Source: Candidatus Daviesbacteria bacterium RIFCSPHIGHO2_12_FULL_37_16
GTDB lineage: Bacteria > Patescibacteriota > Microgenomatia > Daviesbacterales > UBA10151
Direction: 5' to 3'
Length of the DNA stretch: 35,497 nt
Assembly (NCBI GenBank): GCA_001776785.1
Contig: MFDF01000004.1
Coordinates: 9,339-44,835, forward strand
Shown here: in pieces, positions 7,439 through 28,040 of the stretch
Numbering within the stretch: position 1 is the first letter of the stretch
How the letters are laid out: each line of letters opens with the position of its first letter
Position numbers and translations under genes: made by a program
Notes under the pieces: generated by a model
Databases searched by the model: none
What the model saw: the letters and a program-made list of their open reading frames with translations, nothing else
Told to the model about the DNA's origin: nothing

Positions 7439-7446
7439 AATTAAGA

Positions 7447-10074: not shown

Positions 10075-10080
10075 ATACTG

Positions 10081-10089: not shown

Positions 10090-10115
10090 GTCCTTTGAAA
10101 ATCAAGCAAGAAAAA

Positions 10116-10553: not shown

Positions 10554-10558
10554 GTCTT

Positions 10559-11746
10559 TTATAATGCCCTTCTTAGGAGAAATAAGTCAAGGTCATTTGC
10601 ACTTCTGTCTTGATTTAAATCTACCTCAGGATTTTTTAACTGAGGAAGATTGTAGTTTGAAAAGAGCTTTGAGATGAAATCTAAACTTTTTTGACTTTCG
10701 TTTAAGACTGCTGCTGAGGAGGATACTGATACAAAATCAGTACCTGCACTGAAGCCAAAGGGTCCGCTCAAGTCTGAAAAAGTCCTCTTTGATTTATCAA
10801 TACCCTGAAGTTCCAGCTGGAATATATTTTGGCTGGTTATTAATTGAAGAGGAAGGTTTGAGGAGGGCTGCCATAAAACCCTGCCTGTATTTTCTAAGCT
10901 TTTGCCTAAACTTGCATAAAGTCCTCCATTTAAATAAAGGTTAAGGTTTGTAACCTGGCTTATATTAGTTGGGTTCCAGGAAATTGACAGGGCTTTATAG
11001 TAGGAGTAGACTTCCCCTCCTGATGGGGTTTGAATTAGGGCAGAAATATTAGAATTTAGGTTTGGTTTTTCTATTAAAGGAGGAGCAGGTGTTGAGGCAG
11101 CAGAAAAATTAATATTTAAACCCAGGTCTTTTTTGTCTTTTAAGATATTTTGATTATCTGAGTTTCTATATATGGCTGCATAATCTAAAGTTATAGCAGT
11201 TTTTGCAGAACCCTTTGCCCTAAAAAAGAGTGTGGCTATAGTGAAGGTTTGGTTATTGGAAGTCTTAAGCCCTGGATTTGGGACTGCTCCTGTAAGCTTT
11301 GCAGTTCCTGTTAAGTTATCAAAATCAAGTTCAACCCATTTGGTGATTAAGCCTGAGTCAGTTGCAACTTTTACAACTTCCAGGTTTTGAGGAGGAAATT
11401 TTAACAAAACAGCAAATAAATTTGCCTCCATAGCATCTGATCTTACATTAACCCTGACAGGGAAGACAGCCCCATCTGAAAGGTTATTGTTGTCTGTTTC
11501 TAAATTTATGCTTTCTAATAGCTGCGGGGCCTCATTAGCAGCCTGAGGGAGAATATTAGTCCGCTTACTAACCAGGTAAACCCCAATTGGGATTGAAAGT
11601 ACTGTTATTGATAAAAATATGATCATGATCCAGGAGACAATTCCTCTCTTTTTTTCATCTATATAGATATGAGGCAAAGCCTCTCTCCCTTGGAGATGAG
11701 GAAGGGGTCCAGGAGGCTGAGGAGTATGGGATGGTGGTTCAGGCAT
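10559..11746 (-). CDS. Cohesin-like / dockerin-like surface protein
   Basis: 395 residues. A Pro-rich cytoplasmic tail (1-22) and basic stretch precede a membrane helix (about 35-58) and YLVSKRTNILPQA, matching the 625-residue protein at 3979. Residues about 75-215 (LSDGAVFPVRVNVRS... LLKFPPQNLEVVKV... IATLFFRAKG) look like a cohesin-type beta sandwich. Residues about 240-345 form another beta-rich domain (FN3/Ig-like). The C-terminus has VDLNQDRSANDLDLFLLRRAL, a dockerin-like calcium-binding repeat, of which only one copy is seen. Having both partner types in one polypeptide suggests self-assembly or attachment of other surface proteins. Part of the tail (LQGREALPH) is encoded by a small palindrome. 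Domain calls are by motif recognition. Confidence 0.7.
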   Translation of the reverse strand: MPEPPSHTPQPPGPLPHLQGREALPHIYIDEKKRGIVSWIMIIFLSITVLSIPIGVYLVSKRTNILPQAANEAPQLLESINLETDNNNLSDGAVFPVRVNVRSDAMEANLFAVLLKFPPQNLEVVKVATDSGLITKWVELDFDNLTGTAKLTGAVPNPGLKTSNNQTFTIATLFFRAKGSAKTAITLDYAAIYRNSDNQNILKDKKDLGLNINFSAASTPAPPLIEKPNLNSNISALIQTPSGGEVYSYYKALSISWNPTNISQVTNLNLYLNGGLYASLGKSLENTGRVLWQPSSNLPLQLITSQNIFQLELQGIDKSKRTFSDLSGPFGFSAGTDFVSVSSSAAVLNESQKSLDFISKLFSNYNLPQLKNPEVDLNQDRSANDLDLFLLRRAL

Positions 11747-11751
11747 AATAT

Positions 11752-11850
11752 TTAATTTTCAATTTACAATTTACAATTTTCAATGAATTTTCAATGGAAA
11801 ATTTTAAAATTAGAATTTTATTGTAAATTGGTATTTGATAACTGGAATTT
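11752..11850. repeat. AATTTTCAA word repeat between pgk and the cohesin-like gene
   Basis: About 100 bp made of AATTTTCAATTTACAA words that fold back on themselves (TTACAATAAAATT / AATTTTATTGTAA). The same words occur in the 23S insertion (1421-1537) and before the genes at 3979 and 7124. Confidence 0.7.
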
Positions 11851-11851
11851 T

Positions 11852-12820
11852 TCATTCTAACGCTTCTATACTTGGTAATGTCCCTTTGATTAAAAATTCT
11901 AACATTGCTCCCCCTCCTGTTGAAACAAAGGAAAATTTATTTAAAAGTCCTAATTCATCTACATAGGTAATTGTATCTCCGCCGCCAAGAATAGTTTTAG
12001 CATTTGAAGTGGTTATTATTTGCGCGATTTTGCGCGAATTTTGATACTTTTCATCCTCTACTCTACCCAATGGGCCGTTCCAGATAATTAGTCTGGCCCT
12101 CTCAATTAACGGCTGCCATGAATCAACAGTTTCATCTGCAATGTCTTCTTTGTCTTCAGTCAATTTTCCAACCATTACATTTGGGGGAACCTGGGTATTT
12201 TCTAATTTAATTTCATCAGCAATTTTCCCTCCAACTAAAACTGCATCTGCAATTTTGGCTAGGGCTAAAACTGCAGGAAGTTTATCTTCTATTTTTACCC
12301 CACCAATTATAGCTACAAAGGGTTTTTGAGGCCTTTCCCTTATTTCCTCTAAGGTATTTACTTCTTCTGCAAAGGTAAAGCCTGCCCCGTGGGGTAATAA
12401 TTTTGGTAAAAGAGTGGTTGAGGCTGATGGGTGGTGGGAAGCAAAGGCTTCATTTATAAAAACATCACCAAAACTGGCTAATTCTGAAGCAAATTTTTGG
12501 TCACAGTCATCTTCTCCAGCTTCAAATCTTAGGTTTTCCAGGATGTGCAGTTTGCCTTCAGGAAGTCTGATGTGGCCAAAGCCTTCTTCTAACCACTTAA
12601 CTATTGGTCTGACAGTTAAATCTGGGTCTTCACCCTGGGGTCTTCCAATGTGGCCCATGAGTATGACAGATTGTGCATGGTCTAAACAAAATCCTAAAGT
12701 TTCCATGCCTGCTAGAAGCCTGAAGTCATCAACTACCCTGCCATTTTCAATTGGGACATCAAGATCAAGCCTTAATAAAACTTTTTTACCAGAAATCAGG
12801 GCTTCATCCAAAAGTTTCAT
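11852..12820 (-). CDS. pgk: Phosphoglycerate kinase, short form
   Basis: Cytoplasmic glycolytic enzyme transferring phosphate from 1,3-bisphosphoglycerate to ADP. N-domain signatures include LLRLDLDVP (residues 15-23), RLLAGMETL, GHIGRPQG and LENLRFEAGE. The C-domain has IIGGVKIEDKL, VGGKIADEI, NGPLGRVE and the nucleotide-site GGGDTITYV with STGGGAMLEFL. At 322 residues it is much shorter than the usual 390-410, with trimmed loops between domains, as I would expect in reduced CPR genomes. An in-frame GCGCAAAAT repeat encodes part of SRKIAQIIT. A TAAAAT box lies seven bases before the ATG, so it may be leaderless. It is divergent from rpoD. Confidence 0.95.
   Translation of the reverse strand: MKLLDEALISGKKVLLRLDLDVPIENGRVVDDFRLLAGMETLGFCLDHAQSVILMGHIGRPQGEDPDLTVRPIVKWLEEGFGHIRLPEGKLHILENLRFEAGEDDCDQKFASELASFGDVFINEAFASHHPSASTTLLPKLLPHGAGFTFAEEVNTLEEIRERPQKPFVAIIGGVKIEDKLPAVLALAKIADAVLVGGKIADEIKLENTQVPPNVMVGKLTEDKEDIADETVDSWQPLIERARLIIWNGPLGRVEDEKYQNSRKIAQIITTSNAKTILGGGDTITYVDELGLLNKFSFVSTGGGAMLEFLIKGTLPSIEALE
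12018..12045. repeat. Tandem TGCGCGAATTT words inside pgk
   Basis: Two tandem copies of a TGCGCGA-TTT word of about 11 bp. Four related copies lie in the BtuF-like gene (17038-17085). In pgk they are read within a C-terminal helix. Confidence 0.55.
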
Positions 12821-12858
12821 TTAAACCATTTTAACACAATGCTGATTTGAGTCTTTGG

Positions 12859-12887
12859 TTGACTTATTAAAAATTTAGCTTTAAAAT
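12859..12887 (+). promoter_or_regulatory. Promoter of rpoD
   Basis: TTGACT (12859-12864), 17 bp, TAAAAT (12882-12887), seven bases before the ATG at 12895. Transcription should start at or next to the start codon. No Shine-Dalgarno is present. Confidence 0.7.
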
Positions 12888-12894
12888 CCTAAAA

Positions 12895-13878
12895 ATGGCT
12901 ATGATAGAAAAAAAAGGTAGGACTATATCTATTCCTCCAAGGGATCAAACTAAGACCAAGATGGACCTTGGAGATGACTCGACCATCTCAGATGGTACGC
13001 TTTTTTACCTTAATGAAATTGGATCGACTACTCTGCTTACTGCTGAGCAGGAGGTTGAGTTAGCAAAGAGAATTGAAGCAGGGAGATTTGCTAAAGATGA
13101 AAGGTTTTGCAAAGAGGAACTTTTGCCTAAAGCAGAAAAGCTTAGGTTAGTAAAAGCTGAGGAAGAAGGTGAAAGAGCCAGGGATGAACTTGCAGAAAAG
13201 AACCTTAAATTAGTGGTTTCTGTGGCTAGAAGGTATAAGGACCGGGGTTTACCTTTAGGAGACTTAATACAGAATGGTAATTTAGGGCTTCTGCGGGCAG
13301 TAGATAAGTTTGATTATACAAGAGGCTTTAGATTCTCCACCTATGCTACCTGGTGGATTAGACAGGCAGTAATGAGATCTCTTACTGACCATGCCAACAC
13401 AGTTAGAATTCCAGTACATATGAATGATGCCTTAACCAGATTAAACAATATGCTAGGCAACTTTATCCAGGAACATGGAAGAGAACCTGATATAGAAGAA
13501 TCAGCCAGGTTAATAGATATACACCCAGACACTCTAAGAGATGCCAGAAGAGTGCATACTATTTATTCTCTTGATATAAAAGTAAATGGTGAGGATAAGA
13601 ATATAACCTTAGGAGATTCTGTTGTAGATAAGGAGGCAGAAGACCCTGAAGAGATAGCTATTAGAGGGATGAGGCAAGAAAATATTAGAAGAGCTGTAGA
13701 AGACCTTCCAAGTAGAGAAAGAGAGGTTTTGCAGCTGAGGTATGGCTTAGTAGATGGAAGGGAAAGAACCTTAGAAGAAGTAGGTATAGAGTTCGGAGTA
13801 ACCAGAGAAAGGATTAGGCAATTAGAAGCAAAAGCAATTAATATATTTAGAAAAAAGTACAGCCCAAGAGATTTTTAG
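12895..13878 (+). CDS. rpoD: Primary sigma-70 factor
   Basis: Promoter-recognition subunit of RNA polymerase. It lacks region 1.1. Region 1.2 lies at about residues 30-62 (FYLNEIGSTTLLTAEQEVEL). A charged non-conserved stretch follows, then region 2 (101-165, NLKLVVSVARRY, GLLRAVDKFDY, FSTYATWWIRQA, the last being the -10 binding helix), region 3 (about 170-245) and region 4 with the -35 helix-turn-helix VTRERIRQLE (about 265-315). The 327 residues make it a compact primary sigma, probably the only one, consistent with the TTGACA/TATAAT-like boxes seen across the window. It overlaps the carboxypeptidase gene by four bases tail to tail. Confidence 0.95.
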   Translation: MAMIEKKGRTISIPPRDQTKTKMDLGDDSTISDGTLFYLNEIGSTTLLTAEQEVELAKRIEAGRFAKDERFCKEELLPKAEKLRLVKAEEEGERARDELAEKNLKLVVSVARRYKDRGLPLGDLIQNGNLGLLRAVDKFDYTRGFRFSTYATWWIRQAVMRSLTDHANTVRIPVHMNDALTRLNNMLGNFIQEHGREPDIEESARLIDIHPDTLRDARRVHTIYSLDIKVNGEDKNITLGDSVVDKEAEDPEEIAIRGMRQENIRRAVEDLPSREREVLQLRYGLVDGRERTLEEVGIEFGVTRERIRQLEAKAINIFRKKYSPRDF

Positions 13879-14966
13879 AAATATTTCCAGGTAGAGTATT
13901 TTTGTTTTAACTGTTCTTTTGTGATATTAACAGGCTCTATTCCAAAACTGCCAAATCCTAAATCTAAAAGCTTTGAGGCCCAGAGGTCCCTTTCCAATAC
14001 TCCTGGGGCTCCCAAGACAACTACCAGAATCCTTCTTTTATTGCGTGAAGCTCCATCAGGAGCGGAGTGGGATCTCTCAGCTAGAATTAAGGTAGTTTTT
14101 TTAGCATTTTCTGTATTGCCTATTTTTATTCCTTCAACCCCGGGATAAACTCCCAAAAGTCCATTCCAGTTATATAGATCTGCCTGTTTGTGGTTTCCAG
14201 TTTCTCTAAAAAATTGATAATCTTTTTTTACAATTTCACTAATTTGACTATAATTATCTATAGTAAAAGAGCTCATAATAGATAAATCTTCAACTGATGA
14301 AAAATTATTTGGGCTATCATATCCCTGGGGGTTGTCAAATTGAGTATTTTTTAATTTCAACTTTTGGGCTTTCAGGTTCATTGCACTAACAAAACTGCCT
14401 TCACCATATTCCCTGTCCACTTCTTCTTTGAGAGCCTGGGCTGCATCATTTGAGGAAGTAAGAAGCAGTGCGTTTAAGAGTTCATCCCTTTTCCAGGACT
14501 GTCCAGATATTAAACCCATGTTAGTTGGCTCAACCTGGGTCATCTTTTCAGTAATATGTATATCTCTATCATAAGATATCAAATCAATAGCTACTATAGC
14601 AGTCATAAGCTTGGTGATAGAAGCAATGGGAAGTCTTGTTTCCAGATTTTTTTCTGCAATTACTTCCCCATTATCCAGATCTACTACTGCATATGCACTT
14701 AAAGCCTCATAATCCTGGGAACCATGGGCTTTTGGGATAACTAAAGTTTTAGTTTTAAGGTTAAAGTCAGAGGGTTTAGTCTGTTCAAGTTTAGTTTTGA
14801 TTATTTCCAGATTATTTATTTTTTGAGGTGCAGGGTTTGCCAGATTAAACTCAGGTGTTTTAAAGCCCAGGTATGGCAAAGCAACCATGAAAAAACCCGC
14901 CAAAAAGGTTATTGCAAACACTTTCCAGCGGGCTTCAAGGACAGTTGCAATATCGTTTATGCTCAT
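13875..14966 (-). CDS. D-alanyl-D-alanine carboxypeptidase (PBP5-like)
   Basis: Membrane-anchored serine peptidase trimming peptidoglycan stem peptides. One membrane helix (about 15-34) is followed by the periplasmic domain. The catalytic tetrad motif is S116-I-T-K119. The SxN motif is S171-S-N173. The third motif, normally KTG, reads K281-I-G283 in VEGIKIGNT, an unusual substitution that could lower or alter activity. A palindrome-derived insert (SHSAPDGASRN, from GCTCCTGATGGAGC) follows TTLILAER in the strand after this motif. The usual C-terminal amphipathic anchor domain is short. It pairs functionally with alr. Confident of the family, less so of full activity. Confidence 0.9.
   Translation of the reverse strand: MSINDIATVLEARWKVFAITFLAGFFMVALPYLGFKTPEFNLANPAPQKINNLEIIKTKLEQTKPSDFNLKTKTLVIPKAHGSQDYEALSAYAVVDLDNGEVIAEKNLETRLPIASITKLMTAIVAIDLISYDRDIHITEKMTQVEPTNMGLISGQSWKRDELLNALLLTSSNDAAQALKEEVDREYGEGSFVSAMNLKAQKLKLKNTQFDNPQGYDSPNNFSSVEDLSIMSSFTIDNYSQISEIVKKDYQFFRETGNHKQADLYNWNGLLGVYPGVEGIKIGNTENAKKTTLILAERSHSAPDGASRNKRRILVVVLGAPGVLERDLWASKLLDLGFGSFGIEPVNITKEQLKQKYSTWKYF
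14045..14080. repeat. GCTCC..GGAGC palindrome inside the carboxypeptidase gene
   Basis: A GC-rich inverted repeat (AAGCTCCATCAGGAGC, then GGAGTGGGATC) in an AT-rich gene, read in frame as about 11 residues next to the third active-site motif. It is probably a third type of coding-sequence-invading palindrome. Confidence 0.5.
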
Positions 14967-15098
14967 AAAAATTTAGAATTCAAAATGCAAAATTCAAAAT
15001 TTTGGTATTTTCTCACTTTGTTCGAAAAATATTATATTTCTAAGTAAAAATGAGAAATTACATTACTTTTGACATTTAATTTTTGATTTTTAACTTAC
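14967..15098. repeat. Spacer with AAAATTCAAAATTT words
   Basis: An intergenic stretch between two minus-strand genes, containing AATTCAAAATGCAAAATTC words and an AT-rich tail. No gene is seen. It should hold the promoter of the carboxypeptidase gene, but no convincing boxes could be chosen in the repeat. Confidence 0.45.
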
Positions 15099-16430
15099 TT
15101 ATCTTATTTCTTTTGCTAAAACCGTATTATTTGCCAGATCTTTAAGACCAAATTTTTCTCTTAGTAAACTCCACATTTCAGTTTTTCCATCATCAAAACC
15201 TAACGCCCACATCCCTACCCCAGCTAACCCTTTTTCTTTGGCAAAGTCATACTTTAATCCTAAAGATTTTTGATCTTCTATAAAGATCATTCTCCAGGTA
15301 CCTAAACTTGGGACATAGTAGGCTTTATAGGAAACTTTTCCATATTCATCAAATCCTTCTGTGTAGTCAGTTATGTCATCTGAGTTTGGAGTTATATTAT
15401 TGGTGGCCAGGGTGTAAGTCTGAGCATAAGATTTATAGGGAATAAACTGACTGTAGGTCCTTTTACCTTTTTTATAGTAGGTATAATAGCCTTTTGAAGT
15501 AGCAGTTTTTATTTTGGGCTCTTCTACTGCATAGTTATAGCCATACCAGGGAACTCCTAAAATTAATTTATCAGAGGGCATCTTTGATAAAAAATGCTCA
15601 ACTGCAGTTGAGACATCATACCAGTACTTTCCTTCTTTATGGCCATACAGTGGTGAGGTAGGAATAGCATTACTTGATCCTGCAACTGCAAAGTCATAGG
15701 CCATCATAAAGATCCCATCTGAGGAGTCTGCCAGAGCTTTTATATCATAAATTTTTGGATCTTTAACTGAGCTTGCATAGACTGAGACAGTTACTTTTGA
15801 ATTTGGGATTTCCTGATGCATCCATTTGGTCATATTGTCAACAAATTTTGAGAATTTCTCCCTGTACTCTGATCCCGGGTTGCCTGTATATTCAAAATCT
15901 ATATTTACCCCATCTATTCCCCTGTTTTTAACTTCCTCAACAGCCTGAGTGATCACTCTGCTTTGGGCCTCTGGGTCATCCATCAGGGCCAGAATATTGG
16001 GATTGTTCATCTGGGTGAGAGTTAGAACTACCCTAGTTCCATAGTTATGTGCTTTTTTGAAGGTATCTGTGGCTTTGGGGGACATAAAGGTTTCATAACC
16101 CTTAGAAGATTTATCCAGGTTTCCATCTGCCCCAACCTCTACTCCAAAATAAGCCAGGGTGGTGAGAGTAGAAAAGTCTACATTGGAAAGTTTATTGAAG
16201 GTCCAGTATGGGGCAAAGCCAAAAACTTCATATCCAGGTTTGTCTTCTTTTAAAGTTTCCAGTCTCTGAAAAGGGATTAATGGGCTTATGAGCTTTTGCA
16301 AAGGTTTTGAACTATAGATAGTCAGTGCTGAAAGACTAAAAAAACTTAATAGCCCTAGAACTAAATACTTTTTTTCTATTAATCCCAAAAAATCCTTGGG
16401 GGTTTTAATTGAGCCTGGCAGCTGAAACAT
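15099..16430 (-). CDS. GH18-family (YaaH/chitinase-like) envelope protein
   Basis: 443 residues. One membrane helix (about 22-42) anchors an extracytoplasmic TIM-barrel. The family signature DGVNIDFE (D173-E180) holds the catalytic Glu, and FMMAYDF and GVPWYGY are the other expected strands. The closest match in style is the spore-germination YaaH/YdhD-type glycosidases that act on peptidoglycan or related glycans, but no LysM repeat is visible. It may serve in cell-wall remodelling along with alr and the carboxypeptidase. It has a strong promoter (16499-16527), a leader of about 60 bases and an AGGAAG ribosome site, in contrast to the leaderless genes nearby. Confidence 0.88.
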   Translation of the reverse strand: MFQLPGSIKTPKDFLGLIEKKYLVLGLLSFFSLSALTIYSSKPLQKLISPLIPFQRLETLKEDKPGYEVFGFAPYWTFNKLSNVDFSTLTTLAYFGVEVGADGNLDKSSKGYETFMSPKATDTFKKAHNYGTRVVLTLTQMNNPNILALMDDPEAQSRVITQAVEEVKNRGIDGVNIDFEYTGNPGSEYREKFSKFVDNMTKWMHQEIPNSKVTVSVYASSVKDPKIYDIKALADSSDGIFMMAYDFAVAGSSNAIPTSPLYGHKEGKYWYDVSTAVEHFLSKMPSDKLILGVPWYGYNYAVEEPKIKTATSKGYYTYYKKGKRTYSQFIPYKSYAQTYTLATNNITPNSDDITDYTEGFDEYGKVSYKAYYVPSLGTWRMIFIEDQKSLGLKYDFAKEKGLAGVGMWALGFDDGKTEMWSLLREKFGLKDLANNTVLAKEIR

Positions 16431-16498
16431 AGATTAACTTCCTATCTCAACCTAAATACTTGGGATGGACTAAAAAAGAGGGTTGAAACGGAGTGCGC

Positions 16499-16527
16499 AC
16501 TATAACAAATGAGTAAGTACCTGTCAA
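16499..16527 (-). promoter_or_regulatory. Promoter of the GH18 gene
   Basis: TTGACA (16522-16527), 17 bp, TATAGT (16499-16504) on the minus strand. The transcript would start near 16492 and has the palindrome GTGCGCAC at its 5' end. Confidence 0.7.
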
Positions 16528-16580
16528 ATAAGTAGTAAGATTAGGCAGGAAGTTTTATGAGAAAGGTGTAAGAGGTAATA

Positions 16581-17495
16581 TTATAGGGTTTGGAGCTTTT
16601 TAAGGCTCTGCCAATCTTTTTTTGTATGCTTTCTTTGCAAAATTTCAGGATGAATAATTTCTGAGAAGATCTCTACCCCATCTATTACTCTTGGACCAGG
16701 GCGGGTTAAAAAGGAGTTTCCATCCATGAGGTAAAATTCGGATTCATTAATCATTAATCGTAAATCATTAATCAATTTCTTTTCTTTTAAAGTCCTGGAA
16801 ATATCAAATCCACAGGGGGCAAAGATGATAATATCTGGTGAGAGTTTTTTAAGATCTTTTGGGGTTATATAAACAGATTTTTCTCCCTTATTAGATAAAA
16901 GACACTCTCCTCCTGCCAGTTCTACCATCTCTGGGACCCAGTGCCCTGCTATCATGACTGGATCAAGCCACTCTATTATCAAGACCTTAGGCTTGGGAGA
17001 AGTGTGAGGTGAGATGTGGGAAGCGAGAAAGTCAATTTTTTTGCGCAGTTTTTGCACTATTTTGCGTGATCTTGCGCGACTGTTAGTATAATCCCCTACT
17101 GTTTTAATGTTATCCAGGATATCTTCAACTGACTCTGGTTCTAAAGAAATTATTTTGACATCACTATCAAGAATTCTGGCAGCTTTCTTTACTTTATTAA
17201 AACCAACTGCACAGACTTCACAAAGCTCCTGGGTTAATATTAGATCTGGCTTTAATTTTCCTAAAACTTTTGAATTTATATGAAATATCCCTGGACCTTT
17301 ATGGGAGAGTTTTTTAACAGCTTTATCTATTTCCAGACTGCTCATTAAATTACTTACAGGGCTTGAGGTTACTTTTGGCAGAATCTTAACTTGAGCAGGA
17401 TAATCACATTCATGGGAAACTCCAACTAAGTTTTTTTCTAAACCTAAAAGAAAAATAATCTCAGTAGCTGCAGGGAGAAGGGAAAGAATCCTCAT
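16581..17495 (-). CDS. BtuF-like substrate-binding-protein homologue, no signal peptide
   Basis: 304 residues of the helical-backbone periplasmic-binding-protein class. RILSLLPAATEI at the N-terminus, GVSHECDYP (25-33), LILTQELCEVCAV and IEWLDPVMIAGHWVPEMVELAGG match solitary cobalamin-binding-like proteins. There is no signal peptide and no transporter gene nearby, so a cytoplasmic role or corrinoid sensing is more likely than import. Three repeat families are read in frame: ATTAATC words at 16738-16776 (KLINDLRLMINESEF), CTCACATC-type words at 16993-17028 (SHISPHTSP) and TGCGCAAAA words at 17038-17085 (NSRARSRKIVQKLRKKI). These inflate loops and helices. The family call is good; the ligand is uncertain. 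Confidence 0.8.
   Translation of the reverse strand: MRILSLLPAATEIIFLLGLEKNLVGVSHECDYPAQVKILPKVTSSPVSNLMSSLEIDKAVKKLSHKGPGIFHINSKVLGKLKPDLILTQELCEVCAVGFNKVKKAARILDSDVKIISLEPESVEDILDNIKTVGDYTNSRARSRKIVQKLRKKIDFLASHISPHTSPKPKVLIIEWLDPVMIAGHWVPEMVELAGGECLLSNKGEKSVYITPKDLKKLSPDIIIFAPCGFDISRTLKEKKLINDLRLMINESEFYLMDGNSFLTRPGPRVIDGVEIFSEIIHPEILQRKHTKKDWQSLKKLQTL
16738..16776. repeat. Tandem ATTAATC words inside the BtuF-like gene
   Basis: Tandem CATTAATCATTAATCGTAAA words read in frame. This is one of three different word families in this gene. Confidence 0.6.
16993..17085. repeat. Two adjacent word-repeat tracts inside the BtuF-like gene
   Basis: 16993-17028 carries GAAGTGTGAGGTGAGATGTG, the same word type as in the 23S group I intron (about 438-487). 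17038-17085 carries four imperfect TTTTTGCGCA-type words, related to those in pgk. Both are read in frame without stops. Confidence 0.6.
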
Positions 17496-17532
17496 TAAGA
17501 TGATTCTAACTTATTTGGGGATTAAATAATTG

Positions 17533-17561
17533 TTGACTTTAAGGCTATAAATAGATAGATT
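17533..17561 (+). promoter_or_regulatory. Promoter of the 17570 gene
   Basis: TTGACT, 17 bp, TAGATT, with eight bases from the -10 to the ATG. It implies a leaderless or nearly leaderless mRNA. Confidence 0.65.
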
Positions 17562-17569
17562 TAGCGTTA

Positions 17570-18154
17570 ATGATAGAACAACAAATAGGTTTTGAATTGC
17601 CAATAAGAGGCCAGGGTCAAACACTTGATATCTTAAATTTTCCATTCACAACTTCTAGTTCTTACATGGAGTGGAAGCCTAGCGAGAGGGGTAATGGCAG
17701 AAATTATGAACGCTTTACTCAAGTAGTTAGAGAAATATCTCCTGATTTCTCACCACCTACCCCCAAGCATGGGTCTAGATGGAGGAAGGTTACATTTAAT
17801 AAGCCTGGTTGGGAAAATATTTTGGACTTACCTGACCATATACAGGCTATTAATGGAAGTGAATATCATGATCCCCAAACTTTAATTTTGGAATCCCACA
17901 CAATTGAGGGATTTCAGGCCTTTGGACTAAGAAATTTTAGAGGACTTTTTAATGGTGAATCTCCTTTTGACTATGCAGTAAAGTATTTTTATTTGAATTT
18001 TGGTATTTTTGGGTTTCATTATCCTTATGGCTCAAGAGATTTCAAAGATGATTGGCAAACTGTAGTACAAATAGAGCCTAAGAGAGTAGTTTTGGCTTCT
18101 AAGGATACATTGGTGGGTAATGTGACTAGGGACTTTCTGATACAGATGGCGTGA
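17570..18154 (+). CDS. Hypothetical protein, 194 aa
   Basis: I do not recognise this soluble protein. It is rich in Phe/Tyr/Trp and Gly, has no Cys, no signal peptide and no membrane helix. Notable segments are SSYMEWKPSERGNGRNYERF, HGSRWRKVTF and FGIFGFHYPYGSRDF. The mix of aromatic and basic residues suggests ligand or nucleic-acid binding, but that is a guess. The start is fixed by a TTGACT/TAGATT promoter eight bases upstream. It is a single gene, transcribed away from the BtuF-like gene. Nothing in the context points to a pathway. Confidence 0.7.
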   Translation: MIEQQIGFELPIRGQGQTLDILNFPFTTSSSYMEWKPSERGNGRNYERFTQVVREISPDFSPPTPKHGSRWRKVTFNKPGWENILDLPDHIQAINGSEYHDPQTLILESHTIEGFQAFGLRNFRGLFNGESPFDYAVKYFYLNFGIFGFHYPYGSRDFKDDWQTVVQIEPKRVVLASKDTLVGNVTRDFLIQMA

Positions 18155-18513
18155 ATCGTTGCTTAATTTGGTTAATAAACTTTGATTAATTTCATTTAGT
18201 AAAAGCTCATTAATGATAAAAATAAAACAAATATAGGATGTAAAAAAGATTCCGCTGCTTTGGACTAAGAGGCACTTGAAATAATATTCACCTACTCTTA
18301 GATAAGTGCTTGAAGAAAAAATACTCTTAGAGAAGAGTTAATATAAGAATGATAAGATGATAGATTTTTAATGAATAATCAATACAAATGACTATTCACT
18401 ATCATCTTTCTCACTATAATCCTGATTTATGGAGCCTGACCAAGACACATGGCCTCTCACCCCCTAACTCCCTTTAGTGTAGACCTTCAAAATAATAGAA
18501 GTCAAATAAAAAG
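18155..18513. other. Non-coding spacer downstream of tRNA-Ile
   Basis: No gene was found. It holds imperfect dyads (GATAAGATGATAG / CTATCATC at 18352-18412 with TGAATAATCAATACAAATGA words between) and a pyrimidine-rich stretch near 18455-18475. It may carry the tRNA-Ile 3' trailer; no T-tailed terminator was identified. Confidence 0.4.
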
Positions 18514-18588
18514 TGGTGGGCGGTAATGGTGTCGAACCATTGGCCTCGTCTTTATCAGAGACGCGCTCTACCGCTGAGCTAACCGCCC
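18514..18588 (-). tRNA. tRNA-Ile (anticodon GAT)
   Basis: The acceptor arms pair as GGGCGGT / ACCGCCC, with discriminator A and encoded CCA. The anticodon arm is CGTCT-CTGATAA-AGACG, and the T-arm is ATGGTTCGACACCAT. It sits on the rRNA strand between the 16S unit and the tRNA-Ala/23S unit, where the spacer tRNA-Ile of a normal rrn operon would be, but 14 kb from tRNA-Ala. Confidence 0.95.
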
Positions 18589-18639
18589 ATCTACCTCTTC
18601 TTTAAGAGAACAGAGTCTGTTATTGAAACAAAGATTTCA

Positions 18640-18786
18640 ATAACAAGCGCCGTTCTCGCAAGCTCTGCTTATCAGAGAAGCGTTCTATCCTGGGTTACTT
18701 TGTATTATAGTTCTCCTTCAGAGATAAATTGTATGTAACCCGTTGAATTGTCATTTAGACAATTCAACCCACTGAACTACCAGCCC
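18640..18786 (-). pseudogene. tRNA-Ile-like pseudogene with a D-loop insertion
   Basis: The minus strand begins GGGCTGGTAGTTCAGTGG, a convincing tRNA 5' half. Within the D-loop about 80 bp is inserted (18692-18770). The sequence then resumes GATAGAACGCTTCTCTGATAA, giving the D-stem GTTC/GAAC and a GAT anticodon loop. After that it degenerates: the 3' side of the anticodon stem is mismatched and no T-arm or CCAGCCC acceptor strand follows. A duplicate of tRNA-Ile damaged by insertion is the simplest reading. Confidence 0.45.
18692..18770 (-). ncRNA. Structured element, copy B
   Basis: On the minus strand there is a hairpin (GTTGAATTGTC..GACAATTCAAC), then a stem GGGTTAC..GTAACCC enclosing AATTTATCTC-TGAAG-GAGAACTATAATA. 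Copy A at 20144-20219 has the same plan and the same unpaired bases, but different paired bases. Candidate new RNA or mobile palindrome; function unknown. Confidence 0.5.
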
Positions 18787-18847
18787 AAATTTTACTTTAA
18801 CAAACTGAGATATTTTAGCATGTGTGGGGGTTTGAATCCACTTTTAG

Positions 18848-19789
18848 TTAAGCTAAAGCAGCCTGCGGAGATAAAATTTCTCTCAATCTTACAGCTAGGG
18901 CTGCTTTTCTATCTGCCAGACTTCCCCTGAGTTCCCTAATCTCAGTCATAACAGCCTCAAGGGAAATTACATCTAACTTTTTTCCTAAAAGCCTTTGGAT
19001 TAAAGTGCCAGGGCCGCAGTCTAAAAGGTCAGAGTCACCAATACTTGCTTTAAGTTCATTAATTCTTTTTATAATATCTTCTAAATTCACAGGCTGCCAT
19101 AGAGCTTTTATGACTGCATCTTTTAATACCCTACCATCAGTGCTTATTTCTGCGTCAGTTGGGGTAATAATTGGATTTCTTGAGTCTTTAAAATCTATAT
19201 GCTGAATAGCTTGTTCCATTTTTATACTAACCTCTTGCATTAACGGGCAATGGTATCCTGCATTTATGCTTTCTAAAATATTTACTCTTGATCCAGACTG
19301 GGAGGAAAGTACTTCTAAAAACTGCCTGTCTCCTGCTAATACAAAAAGATTTCCATACTCATTTGAGATATAAATTTCAGGAATTCTACCCAGGCCCTCT
19401 GCTATGAATTTAAATTCTTCTGAATTTGGGTCTATCATAGCCTCAACTTTAGCCCTATCCCTTATTAAGACTGAAGCCATGGCTGTCCTTCCCAGGCCCG
19501 CAGCCTCTCTTTTTGCTTCATTTTCCTGGACTATTTCATATCTTATTATGACCAGTTCTTCTGCCTGTTTAGATGTAACAACCTCATTTGCTGCTAGTGT
19601 GGCAAAATAGCCAAAGCTTAAAGGTGAGGCTGCTTTAATCCTTTTAGCAATAGAGCTATCTGAGGTGAGCATTTCAAAGTTCTCTATAGCTTCCCTGTGC
19701 TGGGCTAATTCAGGTATTTGGGCATTTGGGTAATCTTTTGCAGCTTGACCTGCAAAGGTGACTATAAAAGATTTTTCTGTATCTATCAT
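18848..19789 (-). CDS. Orphan FabD-like acyltransferase fold protein
   Basis: 313 residues with the layout of malonyl-CoA:ACP transacylase: IVTFAGQ at the start (residues 9-15), a PLSFGYFATLAANEVVTS segment (56-73) where GHSLGEYAAL is expected, VLIRDRA, AGYHCPLM (177-184, normally G-x-H-S-x-x-M) and DCGPGTLIQRLLG near 255-267. The nucleophile position keeps Ser (S58) and the catalytic His is kept (H180), but the surrounding GHS-x-GE is lost. No other fatty-acid synthesis gene is in the window. It may be a repurposed acyltransferase or a non-catalytic relative. It lies alone between the 16S unit and tRNA-Ile, same strand. Confidence 0.75.
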   Translation of the reverse strand: MIDTEKSFIVTFAGQAAKDYPNAQIPELAQHREAIENFEMLTSDSSIAKRIKAASPLSFGYFATLAANEVVTSKQAEELVIIRYEIVQENEAKREAAGLGRTAMASVLIRDRAKVEAMIDPNSEEFKFIAEGLGRIPEIYISNEYGNLFVLAGDRQFLEVLSSQSGSRVNILESINAGYHCPLMQEVSIKMEQAIQHIDFKDSRNPIITPTDAEISTDGRVLKDAVIKALWQPVNLEDIIKRINELKASIGDSDLLDCGPGTLIQRLLGKKLDVISLEAVMTEIRELRGSLADRKAALAVRLREILSPQAALA

Positions 19790-19951
19790 ATCTTAGTAGA
19801 TAACACTATCTTAATTTTACAACTAAGTCTGTAATGTTGACTACACTAGACTGTATTATAACTTATAGTAAGTAGTATTTCAATTAAAACTATGAGGTAT
19901 GTTATTAGCCTCCCCTATTTGGTATGATAAACAGGTGTAAGCCCTTGTTAT

Positions 19952-20023
19952 GGCCTGGTAGCCAAGTGGTAAGGCAGGAGTCTGCAAAACTCTTATGCAT
20001 CGGTTCAATTCCGATCCAGGCCT
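19952..20023 (+). tRNA. tRNA-Cys (anticodon GCA)
   Basis: Acceptor GGCCTGG / CCAGGCC with discriminator T, the known Cys identity base. Anticodon loop CTGCAAA, T-arm TCGGTTCAATTCCGA. CCA is not encoded. It is the only tRNA on the plus strand and interrupts the 16S - tRNA-Ile order. Confidence 0.95.
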
Positions 20024-20080
20024 CCTTATTCCCTATTACTCAATATTAATCATTTAGCTTGAATTAGTAGTCTATCCAGC

Positions 20081-20102
20081 AAAAAACTCCCTAAATAGGG
20101 AG
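20081..20102 (-). terminator. Intrinsic terminator of the 16S unit
   Basis: On the minus strand CTCCCTATTTAGGGAG is followed by six T. It lies about 310 bp beyond the 16S 3' end, so the 16S transcript ends without reaching any tRNA or 23S. Confidence 0.8.
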
Positions 20103-20143
20103 AAGCTACTCATACTAAATTTCTATAGAAATTTAAAGGAATA

Positions 20144-20219
20144 GGGTTAAGATCATTTATTAATAGTTCTGCTTCGCAGATAAAATGTGCTTAACCCGTT
20201 TAAAGCTTCGCTTTAAACC
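20144..20219 (-). ncRNA. Structured element, copy A
   Basis: On the minus strand the hairpin GTTTAAAGC-GAA-GCTTTAAAC is followed by the stem GGGTTAAG..CTTAACCC enclosing ATTTTATCTG-CGAAG-CAGAACTATTAATA. It lies between the 16S processing stalk and the 16S terminator. Compared with copy B, all three stems differ in sequence yet stay paired. Confidence 0.55.
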
Positions 20220-20222
20220 AAG

Positions 20223-20236
20223 AAAAGTGGTGGGAA
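20223..20236 (-). promoter_or_regulatory. 16S processing stalk, 3' arm
   Basis: The minus strand reads TTCCCACCACTTTT, the exact complement of AAAAGTGGTGGGAA in the 16S leader (23624-23637). The 14-bp duplex would enclose the whole 16S precursor including both introns, a typical RNase III substrate. Confidence 0.8.
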
Positions 20237-20452
20237 TAACCGATTTTAAGCGGGAAAGTTTTTTAGAGAAGACTTTCAACTTCTTACCACCATTTCAACA
20301 AACTGCGCTTGCGCTTAGCTTGTTAAAGCGTGAAGGTGATCGTGGATCAAACAGTGGCTATCATCCCTTGCGGGTTTATGAAATCCATCAGTTTGACCGG
20401 TTCTCCAGAAAGGAGGTGATCCATCCCCAGCTTCGGCTAGGGATACCTTGTT

Positions 20453-21168
20453 CATGTTACTCCACTCATTACTGAGGGCATGGACTATATCTTCATCCTA
20501 TAAATAGGAGTTGGCATATAATGAAAGTTTAATTCTGGATTATCCAGTACCTTCCATATAAGTCTCTACAGGTGATGAATTCAGAAAGACTCTGAATAAC
20601 TCAGACTGTCTGAGTATCAGAGGACCGGAAAGTTCCTCCAGATTGCCAATGACTGCATAGAGAGTTAATTCTTTTTGACAAAACTTTATATTTATCTGCT
20701 AATCTTTTAGCCTCAAAAGATAAGTTTGGTTGAACAATTGCAATCATCCTAAGATGAGTTATTACCTCATCACTAGAACCTATTGCAATCTTTAAGAATC
20801 TTTTAAACTCTTTTTCTGAGGATCGTTTTGCAAATCCTTCAGCTATATTTGCAGCTATTGATTTACCAGCTCGTCTAACCTGAAGTACCAAATCATATTC
20901 TGATTTAGCCAATCTTCTAGATAGACTATAAATTTCTGGTAATAATCTTAAAGCTTCTTGGTAAACTTCTAAGTCAGAAACGTCTTTGATCATAATTTAA
21001 TATTATCAGATCTTCTGATATTCTGAATATCTGGTTTACCGAGTCTTTCCGAGTTATTCTGAAAACACCTTCCCTCGATATTACCCATAAAATATGGGTT
21101 TCATCGATATTAGCCAATTTTTTCTATGTTTTTACAAACATAGGTCGCATCTTGTGCAGATTGCACTG
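20453..21168 (-). ncRNA. Group I intron in 16S at U1498/A1499, with ORF
   Basis: 716 bp between AAGTCGT and AACAAGGTA. The exon ends in U and the intron ends in G (complement of base 20453). The guide GCGAC (21144-21148) pairs with exon GTCGT with a U-G wobble at the splice site. The P7 strands are AGAGACTTATATGG (about 20554-20567) and AAGATATAGTCC (20482-20493). It encodes a four-helix S23/IVP protein rather than a homing endonuclease. It interrupts the 1492R priming site. Confidence 0.9.
20601..20993 (-). CDS. Four-helix-bundle S23/IVP protein encoded in a 16S group I intron
   Basis: 130 residues of the 23S intervening-sequence protein family (four-helix bundle). The start DVSDLEVYQEALRL, the middle QVRRAGKSIAANIAEGF and the end LRMIAIVQPNL..EAKRLADKY are characteristic. 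Members are usually encoded in intervening sequences of 23S genes, where their role is unclear; RNA or ribosome binding has been suggested. Here the gene lies inside a group I intron of 16S, where a homing endonuclease would be expected. It may act as a maturase-like or stabilising factor (inference). The last 15 or so residues run into the ribozyme core upstream of P7, so this tail is probably constrained by the RNA. Confidence 0.88.
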   Translation of the reverse strand: MIKDVSDLEVYQEALRLLPEIYSLSRRLAKSEYDLVLQVRRAGKSIAANIAEGFAKRSSEKEFKRFLKIAIGSSDEVITHLRMIAIVQPNLSFEAKRLADKYKVLSKRINSLCSHWQSGGTFRSSDTQTV

Positions 21169-21254
21169 ACGACTTAAGCCTCATCGCTGGTTTCACCTTC
21201 TACCCCTGTAGGGATATTCGGGTGCCCCCAACTTTGCTGCCTTGACGGGCGGTG

Positions 21255-22087
21255 ATCGGGATAAGAAACCTTTCCCTCCCCACTATACGTGCGCTTCTAA
21301 CGCATATAGCGAGTCTTCATGCTTTAAAGCCTTTCTTAAAGAACGGATTTCTTCAATCCCTTCTTCGGTAATATGCTTTTTCAAATCCATCATATCTGCT
21401 ACTTTGCAGAATATTTCAAATTGAAATCTTTTCTTAGCTAGAGGAGGATATTTTTTAAAGAAAGGTATTACTTTTTCTTTAATATCCTTGAATGAACCTA
21501 CTTGATATTTTACATGCGGTCTCCATTTTTTATACCGTTCATATTCTAAACGATAAATGGAACCACAATCTAAAGTTTTTTGAATCTCTTTCAAGATTAG
21601 TTCATCATCTTCTCTAAGTTCAATCTCAAATTTAAGCCGTACTTCTGGTACTCTGAATCGTCTTTTAGAAATGGTTATTGAAAAACAACCCTCTCCATCA
21701 ACAAATCCAGTAACATAATGTGGATTTAACATAAAGTTCATCCCTTCGGTAATTATTTGGGCTATCTATACTTTATTAAGTTTAGATAAACTTGTCAATT
21801 ACCTACTATGGACTCAGCTGACTTCCTAAGGCCTATTATTGTTCTGATGCCTTAGGATCTCCCTGGGTCATTTAAAAAACTGTTTCCGACATTCCTTGCG
21901 ACTTATTTTTTGTAACTTCTCTATCGTACACTGATAGATCGTCACAGTCTTTTTGCAAAGGCTGCCTTTTGTATATGGGACCCTTCAGACATTCTGTTAC
22001 CAGAGATGTCCTGTCCGCAACTATGCCACTTTCGTGGCAGATGGATTTACACCACCTAGTTTATTAAACTGCCAGGCGCATTTATTT
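21255..22087 (-). ncRNA. Group II intron in 16S at A1396/C1397, with LAGLIDADG ORF
   Basis: 833 bp between CTTGTACA and CACCGCCC. The 3' end carries domain V (about 21314-21278). It has a CGC triad pairing with GTG, the stem CTATA/TATAG, the two-base CG bulge, and the upper stem TGCG/CGCA. Domain VI follows as GGGA-AAG..CTT-A-TCCC. The bulged A is eight bases from the 3' end, and the intron ends GAT, so AY. The 5' end has six extra bases (AAATAA) before ATGCG, the likely counterpart of GUGYG. Domain I-like hairpins follow. LAGLIDADG-bearing group II introns with 5' additions are known from fungal mitochondrial rRNA genes. Confidence 0.82.
21283..21741 (-). CDS. LAGLIDADG homing endonuclease within a group II intron
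   Basis: 152 residues with one LAGLIDADG-type motif (YVTGFVDGEGCFSI, residues 9-22; the acidic catalytic residue is in GFVDGEG), so it should act as a homodimer. LKEIQKTLDCGSIY and KIDI-like strand patterns fit the family's single-motif members. It would cut intronless 16S alleles at the A1396/C1397 site to drive homing. The last codons (DSLYALEAHV-stop) are the same bases that form domain V of the ribozyme, so protein and RNA are locked together at the 3' end. No reverse transcriptase is present, unlike normal mobile group II introns. Confidence 0.9.
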   Translation of the reverse strand: MNFMLNPHYVTGFVDGEGCFSITISKRRFRVPEVRLKFEIELREDDELILKEIQKTLDCGSIYRLEYERYKKWRPHVKYQVGSFKDIKEKVIPFFKKYPPLAKKRFQFEIFCKVADMMDLKKHITEEGIEEIRSLRKALKHEDSLYALEAHV

Positions 22088-22997
22088 TGTACAAGAGGCG
22101 AGAACGTATTCACCGCGACCTGCTGATTCGCGATTACTAGCAATTCCGACTTCATGGGGGCGAATTGCAGCCCCCAATCTGAACTGAGGCGAAATTTCAG
22201 AGATTTGCTTCCTGTTACCAGGTTGCAGCTCGTTGTTTTTCGCCATTGTAGGGTGTTTGTAGCCCAGGGTGTAAGAGCCGTGCTGACTTGACGTCATCCG
22301 CTCCTTCCTTCCTAAAAATTAGGACTGTCCCGTATGAACTATTTAACATACGGCGCGGGTTTCGTTCGTTTGCCCACTTAAGGGGACAGCTCACGCCACG
22401 AACTTACGACAGCCATGCAGCATCTGTGTAGAACCCTCGAAGGAGGCCTACTTTCATAGGCTTAGCATCTACATGTCAAACCCTGGTGAGGTTTTTCGCT
22501 TTGTATCGAATTAAACAACACGCTCCACTGCTTGTGCGCCTCCCCGTCAATTCCTTTGAGTTTTAATCTTGCGATCGTACTCCCCAGGCGGGATGCTTAA
22601 CGGGTTACCTTGCGTCACCCAAAAAAATCGGGTAACTAGCATCCATCGTTTACGGCTTGGACTACGCAGGTCTCTAATCTGCTTCGCTCCCCAAGCTTTC
22701 GTGCCTCAGCGTCATGGGTTTCCCAGGTACCTGCCTACGCCTTTGGTGTTCCAGATCATATCAACGCATTTCACTGCTACACGATCTGTTCCAGTACCCT
22801 CTTAAACCATCAAGTTTACTCATTTCTTGCCCGAAACTATGGTTAGGCCATAGCCTTTCAAACAAGATGCAGTAAACCGCCTACGCAACACTTTACGCCC
22901 AATGAATCCGGATAACGCTTGCACCCTACGTATTACCGAGGCTTCTGGCACGTAGTTAGCAGGTGCTTATTCGCAAGGTACCGTCATAATCTTCCCT

Positions 22998-23028
<31 letters not shown>

Positions 23029-23362
23029 AATCCTCCACGCGGCGTCGCTCGGTCAGGCTTTCGCCCATTGCCGAAGATTCCCAGTTGCTGCCATCCGTAG
23101 ATGTATAGGCCGTGTCTCAGTCCTATTGTGGCTGACCATCCTCTCAGACCAGCTACCCGTCGTTGCCTTGGTAGGCCATTACCCCACCAACAAGCTGATA
23201 GGACGCAGGCTCATCTTAAAGCGATAAATCTTTAATCTTGCGATCACATACAGTATTACCCAACCTTTCGGCTGGCTATCCTATACTTTAAGGTAGATTC
23301 CCACGTATTCCTCACCCGTCCGCCGGTTGCGCATTACTGCGCCCCCTTGACTTGCATGCTTA

Positions 23363-23405
<43 letters not shown>

Positions 23406-23429
23406 AGATAAAGAATGTCTACCGCTTTC

Positions 23430-23480: not shown

Positions 23481-23623
23481 ATTCTTAAAATCCTGAACAG
23501 AAATTACGCTAACTTTTTACTAAAAAAATTTGCGAATTCATTGTTTTTGGAATTGACCCCACTATGCATAAATGCTTCGCGGGGTAAACAAGGAGACATT
23601 TTATTCAAATGCTCTTGTATTTT

Positions 23624-23637
23624 TTCCCACCACTTTT
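23624..23637 (-). promoter_or_regulatory. 16S processing stalk, 5' arm
   Basis: AAAAGTGGTGGGAA on the minus strand pairs perfectly with 20223-20236 across the whole 16S precursor. Confidence 0.8.
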
Positions 23638-23662
23638 CCGGGTTCAAATTACTCAATTCAGA

Positions 23663-25205: not shown

Positions 25206-26165
25206 ATGGCTTCACAGATAGATTATGTTTTACTCTCTGGCACTGCTAATCCTCAATTATCTTTCCAGGTTGGGAAAATTTTAAAAACAAAAGTTTATGA
25301 GCCTGTTACCAGGTTTGCAGACGGAGAAGTCAGGATCCAAATCCCTGTCAACATAAGAAGAAGGAGTGTGATTATTATCCAGCCTACCTGCCCGCCCCAG
25401 GTTGACCAGAGCATAATGGAGCTTATTTTAATGATTGATGCTGCCAAGAGGGCATCTGCATCTGAGATAATTGCCATCATTCCATATTTTGGATATGCCA
25501 GGCAAGACAGGAAGGATCGGCCAAGGGTCCCTATCTCTTCATCTGTTGTAGCAAGACTTATAGAGCATGCAGGGGCAAACAGGATCTGCACCGTAGATAT
25601 CCATTCTGACCAGGAACAGGGTTTTGTATCTACTCCCTGGGATAATTTGTATGCAAGTTTTTGCCTGGTCCCTAAGATTAAGAAATTAAAACTTAAGAAT
25701 TTAGTAGTTGCTTCCCCTGATAAAGGAGGGGTTCCTATGGCAACTGCTTTTGCTAAAAGGTTAAAAGCAACCGGGCTGGCCATAGTTTATAAAGAAAGGG
25801 ATGTGCATTTAAATGATTCAGCAGCGTCTCTGGATATGATTGGGGATGTAAAAGGAAAAACAGTTTTAATGGTTGATGATTTAGTTTCTACAGCAAGTAC
25901 GCTTTGCAATGGCGCAGATTTAATTAAATTAAGGGGAGCAAAAAATATTCTTGCTGCAATTACCCATGGAATTTTTTCCCAGGATGCACTGGAGAGGATT
26001 GCCTCCTCCCCTATTGATAAATTATTTATAACAAATACTGTTCCTCAAAGAGAAGAGGTTTTAAAAAGCAAAAAAATAGAAATAGTTTCAGTTGCTCCAC
26101 TGATTGCAGAAGCCATAAAAAGGATAGAAACTGGTGAATCTATTTCTGAAAAATTAATCCTTTAA
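25206..26165 (+). CDS. prs: Ribose-phosphate pyrophosphokinase
   Basis: Cytoplasmic enzyme making PRPP from ribose 5-phosphate and ATP for nucleotide synthesis. FADGEVRIQI, PYFGYARQDRKDRPR, the TVDIHSDQEQGF metal/ATP loop (usually DLHxxQIQGFF) and the PRPP loop VLMVDDLVSTAST are present. 319 residues is standard. Its last 13 codons, TGESISEKLIL-stop, lie in a 40-bp segment that recurs at 28001-28040, on the other side of a two-gene cassette. Before that insertion the gene probably met the minus-strand gene now at 28027-29349 tail to tail. Confidence 0.96.
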   Translation: MASQIDYVLLSGTANPQLSFQVGKILKTKVYEPVTRFADGEVRIQIPVNIRRRSVIIIQPTCPPQVDQSIMELILMIDAAKRASASEIIAIIPYFGYARQDRKDRPRVPISSSVVARLIEHAGANRICTVDIHSDQEQGFVSTPWDNLYASFCLVPKIKKLKLKNLVVASPDKGGVPMATAFAKRLKATGLAIVYKERDVHLNDSAASLDMIGDVKGKTVLMVDDLVSTASTLCNGADLIKLRGAKNILAAITHGIFSQDALERIASSPIDKLFITNTVPQREEVLKSKKIEIVSVAPLIAEAIKRIETGESISEKLIL

Positions 26166-26167
26166 CA
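26128..26167. repeat. Direct repeat, left copy, at the prs 3' end
   Basis: 40 bp including the prs stop codon, matching 28001-28040 at 39 of 40 positions. The cassette's asnB-like gene ends 10 bp to its right. Confidence 0.9.
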
Positions 26168-27581: not shown

Positions 27582-28001
27582 ATGGCAGAGAATGTCTTAA
27601 ATATAAGAAGCAATGAAAGGTTCTTAACCTCTTTAAGAATCGTTATACCTTTTTTAGCCCAAGTTCCTGATCCTATATATTATCAGCTTGATAGCTCACA
27701 ATTTGTTCTCCCTAAAGGTAATATCGCAAGGTTAAGAGTAATGTTAGAAGATGAAATTGGACATTTTGTCATGACTTATAGAGCAGATACATTTAATTTG
27801 ACAATTCCTTTAGAAAGACATTTATGCGCAGTCCTGGCAGGAGCTGAGTTAACTGCTGAACAAATAACCCTTCTTCAACATTATGAAGCGAGGACGAAAC
27901 CTAACGGGATAAGTCTAGTTGTTTATAAAAGACCGCTTGAACTAATAAATTCTAGAGAGAGCTGGCTTTTTGAGAATTATCAAAAAAGAGGATTACTTTA
28001 A
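27582..28001 (+). CDS. Hypothetical protein, 139 aa, cassette cargo
   Basis: I do not recognise it. It is a soluble alpha/beta protein with RLRVMLEDEIGHFVMTYRADTFNLTIPLER in the centre, a pattern of alternating charged and hydrophobic strands faintly reminiscent of CYTH-type tunnels. The match is too weak to name. It has no Cys. It is divergent from the asnB-like gene, and its TAA stop ends at the first base of the right-hand direct repeat, so it fills the cassette to the edge. An extended -10 lies ten bases upstream of the ATG. Confidence 0.65.
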   Translation: MAENVLNIRSNERFLTSLRIVIPFLAQVPDPIYYQLDSSQFVLPKGNIARLRVMLEDEIGHFVMTYRADTFNLTIPLERHLCAVLAGAELTAEQITLLQHYEARTKPNGISLVVYKRPLELINSRESWLFENYQKRGLL

Positions 28002-28040
28002 AACAGGTGAATCTATTTCTGAAAAATTAATCCTTTAACA
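28001..28040. repeat. Direct repeat, right copy
   Basis: A duplicate of the prs 3' end (39/40). On the minus strand the same bases supply the last codons and stop (LLKD-stop) of the 28027-29349 gene, so one 40-bp sequence serves two genes on opposite strands. Confidence 0.9.

Follow-up and report, generated by a model that had tools for sequence, protein, structure and literature searches.

Mobile elements of the IS200/IS605 type carry hairpins at their ends, insert 3' of a fixed short target without duplication, and are mobilised by a Y1 transposase. REP elements and BIMEs, which are mobilised by RAYTs, are described as short extragenic palindromes that are often found downstream of genes, bear an unpaired G-rich tag at one hairpin end and are thought to be miniature transposons (PMC3733652, PMC2817692). 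A REP palindrome is 20-40 bp long (PMC3733652), and its copy number is usually more than 100 per genome (PMC2817692). Repetitive hairpin elements, consisting of single or double hairpins, are also dispersed in the intergenic regions and rRNA of sponge mitochondria, where stems are conserved and loops vary (PMC2800124). Finally, work on Archaea reports disrupted, split and permuted tRNA genes (PMC4033280, PMC3978253).

The DNA examined in this study (hereafter the window) is a 35.5-kb stretch of contig C4 in the 1.0-Mb genome of a Candidatus Daviesbacteria bacterium (G000), and it contains two copies, A and B, of an element that is a new form of dispersed palindromic repeat. Like REPs and BIMEs, this element is an extragenic palindrome, and the G-rich TGG at its left flank may correspond to their unpaired tag. 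However, at approximately 75-90 bp it is longer than the 20-40 bp of a REP; it is made of a pair of adjoining hairpins, has a conserved internal loop and ends in AGGA; and it lies mostly in the D-loops of tRNA 5' halves. A REP hairpin has a GTAG-like tag at its foot; here the left flank is TGG in 35 of 46 aligned rows, frequently as GTGG, and GTAG itself was not seen. The 45 genomes of the family contain 0 to 8 matches each, compared to the much higher copy number of REPs. The sponge mitochondrial elements differ in the opposite distribution of constraint, since here it is the unpaired core that is conserved, whereas the stems covary. By description, the element also resembles MITE-type derivatives of IS200/IS605 in having end hairpins and in lying directly 3' of a short motif. 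The left flank is a fixed TGG, but no parent insertion sequence, no link to an enzyme and no empty-site pair were found, the element is only about 80 bp long, and such an origin leaves the tRNA half unexplained. The archaeal split tRNAs are similar in that tRNA genes are interrupted or halved; in the present case, however, there is an additional, intact tRNA, and the half itself appears to be non-functional. A survey of open-licence papers turned up no description of the element, nor of comparable tRNA halves in CPR.

Structure of the two copies

Both copies are on the minus strand, with copy A at 18692-18768 and copy B at 20144-20218. A first-pass annotation, made by inspection of the letters, had described a hairpin followed by a GGGTTA..TAACCC stem enclosing a small hairpin, and this arrangement was found in both copies, where a first hairpin (HP1) and a second (HP2) abut with zero linker. 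In copy A, HP1 (18742-18768) reads GTTGAATTGTC-TAAAT-GACAATTCAAC and forms a perfect 11-bp stem with a TAAAT loop, while HP2 (18692-18741) has the outer stem GGGTTAC/GTAACCC, the conserved internal loop and the inner stem TCTCT/GGAGA. HP1 of copy B (20198-20218) reads GTTTAAAGC-GAA-GCTTTAAAC and is followed by HP2 at 20144-20197. The layout of HP2 is an outer stem, GGGTTA..TAACCC, leading to an asymmetric internal loop (ACA.TTTA against AACTAT) and then to an inner hairpin. The same annotation was also right that the unpaired bases are common to A and B (TTTATCT and AGAACTAT occur in both) and that the stems differ in sequence yet pair in each copy.

Searches of the G000 genome identified no copies besides A and B. 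At the gathering score, the Rfam 15 matches in the window were limited to rRNA, tRNA and a group I intron, with copies A and B unmatched, and the below-threshold matches at copy A were at chance level. A self-cleaving ribozyme or riboswitch was rejected on the zero Rfam matches together with the lack of a common downstream function.

Family, covariation and distribution

Copies A and B alone were used to build a covariance model (R1) that covers the 54-nt HP2 core and leaves HP1 out. R1 returned 21 more matches, distributed over 12 further genomes of the GTDB family to which G000 belongs, with a best E-value of 9.7e-9 per genome (model E-values rest on a short calibration) and with significant matches extending to other genera. 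Although HP1 was absent from the model, it precedes HP2 in the aligned matches; it occurs in nearly all homologues and itself covaries. Across the 23 aligned matches of the core, 98.8% of the pairs are standard and the covariation score is 0.417, compared to 0.106 for shuffles and at most 0.047 for slid structures. For 20 copies, 96% of the 24 proposed pairs are standard, 18 of the 24 show double-sided changes, and the score is 0.568, compared to 0.164 shuffled and at most 0.080 slid; these control figures are not probabilities, and the effect lies far outside both of them.

A second covariance model that included HP1 (R2) found 55 matches in 25 of the 45 genomes of the family and zero matches in 252 genomes from other families of the class. 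A GTDB-wide scan with a specific pattern gave five true matches, all of them in Daviesbacteria, and the related records that bear the element carry the name Candidatus Daviesbacteria; three matches outside Daviesbacteria were without the structure and were rejected as chance. A pattern search of the phylum gave 0 of 379, but it is weak, since its pattern fits a short HP2 only and also misses known family copies, and the covariance search of the class is the better guide. Copies A and B belong to a real family of approximately 80-base structured repeats that is restricted to one bacterial family. A wider search with a covariance model of both copies, along with a look for supported covariation, had been suggested when the copies were first noticed; what it produced was the additional copies and the strong covariation given above, clearly not an isolated pair of hairpins without covariation. 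Chance resemblance or an assembly artefact is so improbable that it can be set aside. Hairpins of the GCGAAGC type are common and G000 has only two copies, but the element is found in independent assemblies of many genera, its covariation is far above that of shuffles, and the family-wide search already refutes the idea.

Several sub-types are distinguished by the interior of HP2 (GGGTTAAC..TTTATC.., GGGATAACTACAAAC..TCCGC.., GGGTTGCTTCC.. and plain hairpins), and they mostly retain AGGA, a GTT..AAC foot on HP1 and GGG..CCC within HP2. The bases of the internal loop are conserved at least as well as the stems, with TTTA and C, for example, being invariant; the excess of unpaired over paired conservation is suggestive only (p = 0.07). 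A TATAAT in the 3' internal loop, considered as a portable promoter, has no -35 and is not kept in all copies.

Copies in tRNA 5' halves

A strict structural scan of the fetched loci gave 43 distinct copies once spurious rows were removed. An intact tRNA is located 11-79 nt downstream of 30 of the 43, always in sense, a fraction that is biased slightly upward because a few loci were fetched via tRNA searches. These 30 comprise 27 direct cases and three (L056, L059 and L091) in which the nearest tRNA is upstream but another follows; the tRNA neighbourhood tallies for G000, G057 and G058 cover most, not all, tRNAs. In nearly all of the tRNA-linked copies the element comes directly after the D-loop G18G19 of a truncated tRNA 5' copy, which resumes after AGGA with the 3' strand of the D-stem and ends around the anticodon loop. 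The left flank is TGG or CGG in 42 of 46 rows and the right flank is NGGA or NGGG in 44 of 46 (three spurious rows included in both counts), and the TGG left flank and AGGA right end define the boundaries of insertion. By simple match scores, 41 of the 202 tRNAs in the fetched loci have a 5' half upstream and 23 have a 3' half downstream; no shuffled control reached these scores, and the loci were partly selected for the element.

The 5' part of the truncated tRNA-Ile copy at copy A (nt 1-19 region; 18769-18786, minus strand) ends in the D-loop GG directly before the element and matches the genome's own tRNA-Ile at 14 of 18 positions. Its continuation after the element (18668-18691, minus strand) reads AGGA-TAGAACGCTTCTCTGATAAG, running from the D-stem 3' strand to the anticodon loop, and is identical at 18 of 18 positions to the intact tRNA-Ile of a relative over AGAACGCTTCTCTGATAA. 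This tRNA-Ile(GAT) 5' half is identical at 30 of 36 positions to the adjacent intact tRNA-Ile(GAT), downstream at 18514-18588 (minus strand), and at 33 of 36 to the intact tRNA-Ile of genome G010, which agrees with the earlier remark that one copy sits in a tRNA-like D-loop. The truncated tRNA copy beside the intact tRNA was missed at that stage and is the most surprising part of the finding. Removal of the insert does not yield a complete tRNA in these cases, as the copies stop near the anticodon loop and an intact tRNA of the same kind follows. At one locus upstream of tRNA-Thr (L109, genome G049), a further hairpin insert is nested in the D-stem of the element-bearing half.

The arrangement is also what might be expected of a cis-acting structured RNA. 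The half together with HP1-HP2 would then be transcribed as the 5' leader of the tRNA, would form a three-way junction with the D-stem as its closing helix, and would regulate tRNA folding, processing or dosage, for instance by presenting the 3' half of the tRNA with a competing 5' acceptor/D-arm. The uniform sense orientation and close spacing of the strict tRNA-linked copies point in this direction, as do the conservation of the unpaired core with its invariant TTTA and C, the compensatory changes in the stems, and a promoter-like TAAAAT ahead of most halves. In addition, the flanks can form the closing stem in 24 of 46 rows, compared to 10.7 for shuffled pairs, and half and hairpins are retained at tRNA-Thr across several genera even though the type of hairpin changes between genomes. 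Folding predictions for several leaders pair the half with the 3' acceptor strand of the tRNA, and the half could replace the tRNA's own 5' half. However, the half and the intact tRNA often differ at acceptor positions 5-7, and four close relatives (G052, G055, G047 and G050) have the same tRNA without the element.

tRNA 3' halves and nested tRNAs

A possible weaker relative of the element had been placed at 3093-3160, beside tRNA-Ala. This feature is instead a tRNA-Ala 3' half (3094-3165, minus strand) with two hairpins in its T-loop (3125-3149 and 3111-3124), next to the intact tRNA-Ala(TGC) at 3167-3240 (minus strand); it is related in kind but is a different element. Inserts of another sort are carried in the T-loop by 3' halves at other loci, and the tRNA-Ala half is of the same general kind. 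Three genomes (G000, G041 and G042) have a conserved T-loop insert type (..GATCTTTGATCTGGTTCG-hairpin-GTGTATTATCC) after tRNA terminators. Ten copies were read in G041 and G042; each lies in sense behind an intact tRNA, nine of them at a distance of 60-67 nt. Seven pattern matches to this type were counted in G000, where the loci are L148, L149, L152, L162, L166, L168, L170 and L171. Two tRNA-Lys 3' halves (L148 and L203) have a hairpin in the anticodon loop (ACTCTTGC-hairpin-GGGTGTATTATC).

At least five loci (L061, L175, L086, L018 and L119) have an outer 5' half that can pair with an outer 3' half at 7 of 7 positions (G.U allowed) but whose acceptor is unlike the one in the intact tRNA enclosed between them. 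Judging from these sequences, the intact tRNA therefore appears to sit inside the anticodon loop of a tRNA that is older and split. For tRNA-Ile, one allele is the outer one in one genome and the inner one in another. A counter-case is L067, where the 5' half of L061 is present without a visible 3' partner.

Copies at other sites

Approximately one-third of the copies are located away from tRNAs. Some of these directly follow an intrinsic terminator and precede an unrelated gene (rplC, trpE-like or tgt-like), and some lie between convergent genes; rpoD-like is a further unrelated neighbour. Copy B, which had been noted as trailing 16S, does so closely: it starts 3 nt past the 3' arm (20222-20239, minus strand) of a processing-stem-like inverted repeat that brackets 16S, with the 5' arm upstream of the gene at 23621-23638 (minus strand). 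At this 3' arm, copy B and a copy in G048 follow in sense, while the copy in the same place in G042 is reversed. No clear target-site duplication was seen at the non-tRNA copies. Decayed copies occur at L078 and L094 and insertion-bearing copies at L097 and L086, and L117 is a half without hairpins, as expected of a deletion between two CAG motifs.

The orientation of the element is set by its site and not by downstream function. The share of copies not at tRNAs, some of them between convergent genes, the failure of orientation at 16S to be kept between genomes, and the existence of decayed copies all count against a leader RNA acting on the tRNA. Such a leader is the main rival explanation, although we consider it rather improbable; if the leader does act as RNA, it would represent a novel kind of leader linked to tRNAs. 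The first-pass annotation had left the choice between a functional RNA and a mobile structured palindrome, and of these the palindrome is now better supported, while the functional RNA is weakened by the unrelated neighbours, the orientation at 16S and the decay.

Origin of the element

It is also possible to explain the repeats by passive turnover of palindromes. Recombination would make partial tRNA duplicates (pseudo-halves) whose loops gather hairpins, and the perfect, varying stems would result from template-switch repair of quasi-palindromes, not from selection or transposition. The standard pairs are almost all Watson-Crick, with 4 G.U in 455 paired cells, which fits this explanation, as do the hairpin inserts in the T-loops and anticodon loops of other halves and the loss of hairpins by CAG-CAG deletion at L117. 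However, the G.U share of approximately 2%, compared to 3% in tRNA acceptor stems, is a moderate deficit, and the scarcity of G.U was dropped as proof of a DNA-level process on that account. In addition, the unpaired core bases are conserved, and a specific sequence (the TAAAT loop, TTTATC, AATATAAT and AGGA) recurs at unrelated loci and in different genera. Passive turnover is quite unlikely, and it is the weaker rival because local palindrome repair cannot copy an element to new sites.

A small mobile repeat is favoured over a dedicated cis-acting RNA by the presence of one sequence at unrelated sites, its patchy distribution, the two near-identical copies at different tRNAs (Thr and His) in G010, the decay of copies, and the orientation set by the site. 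The occurrence of different hairpin types at one tRNA-Thr locus in different genomes points the same way. We give about even credence to the more specific proposal that copies A and B represent a lineage-specific, low-copy dispersed DNA repeat (TGG^-HP1-HP2-AGGA) that spreads, or once spread, in the manner of a small mobile element, non-autonomous and recognised through the fold of its single strand. Recognition of a folded strand is suggested by the combination of conserved unpaired bases and covarying stems, and the strand could be single-stranded DNA during transposition, or RNA. The element would insert after TGG, at hairpin loops or at their ends, with the D-loop of a tRNA gene as the commonest target; the other targets would be positions that follow intrinsic terminators or the stem flanking 16S. 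Insertion into the sole copy of a tRNA would presumably be lethal, so that survivors would be those with another intact tRNA, either already there or newly arriving, and the 3' part, no longer used, would be lost. The configuration that survives is a truncated, element-bearing 5' half adjoining an intact tRNA of its own kind; at some loci this tRNA is apparently nested between both halves of the older tRNA. Simple insertion by itself leaves the cut of the tRNA copy near the anticodon loop unexplained. The low copy number, at most 8 per genome, also counts against mobility, and the conserved internal loop and all-sense tRNA-linked copies fit a cis-acting RNA as well.

No mobilising enzyme was found linked to the element. 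Whereas a RAYT (Y1) gene is flanked by REPs, no Y1 transposase gene occurs in G042 (7 matches, 97% complete) or in G011 (2 matches, 100% complete), and the Y1 genes of G000 are on contigs C8 and C16, with copies A and B on C4. Mobilisation by RAYT/Y1 is not supported, as there is no association by genome or by locus. The search for carriage of the element by phages or plasmids gave no match; 11 viral matches of a loose pattern were chance coding matches, as was one match of the T-loop type.

Should the element be mobile, it would show how very small repeats can turn tRNA genes to use as safe sites. Patescibacteria have small genomes with few tRNA genes, and elements that repeatedly hit these genes and leave halves around an intact copy would therefore be an unusual evolutionary force. 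A broader proposal, possible but on the doubtful side, is that Daviesbacteria-type CPR harbour a system that invades tRNA genes, in which structure-recognised hairpin elements specific to tRNA loops (D-loop, T-loop and possibly anticodon loop) would break a tRNA gene and leave, nested between the halves, an intact tRNA of matching kind that is in many cases a different allele. Such splitting of tRNA genes would be novel if shown, and the system would amount to a mobile-element strategy that relies on splitting tRNA genes and supplying them anew.

Other features of the window

The window contains part of 23S with tRNA-Ala alongside, and 16S with tRNA-Ile at a distance of approximately 1.8 kb. 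The rRNA operon is fragmented (2777-20407), such that tRNA-Ile is near 16S, tRNA-Ala is near 23S, and about 17 kb of other genes lie between. A group I intron is located within the 23S gene at 226-586 (Rfam RF00028, 55.5 bits). The 16S gene (20407-23411) is split by ORF-bearing inserts; by eye, the ORF at 21283-21741 looks like a LAGLIDADG endonuclease and the ORF at 20601-20993 resembles four-helix-bundle rRNA-insert proteins. Two direct duplications at gene ends each resemble a 3' gene fragment copied nearby, one of 80 nt (29451-29530 and 32517-32596, 84% identical) and one of 40 nt (26128-26167 and 28001-28040, 98%).
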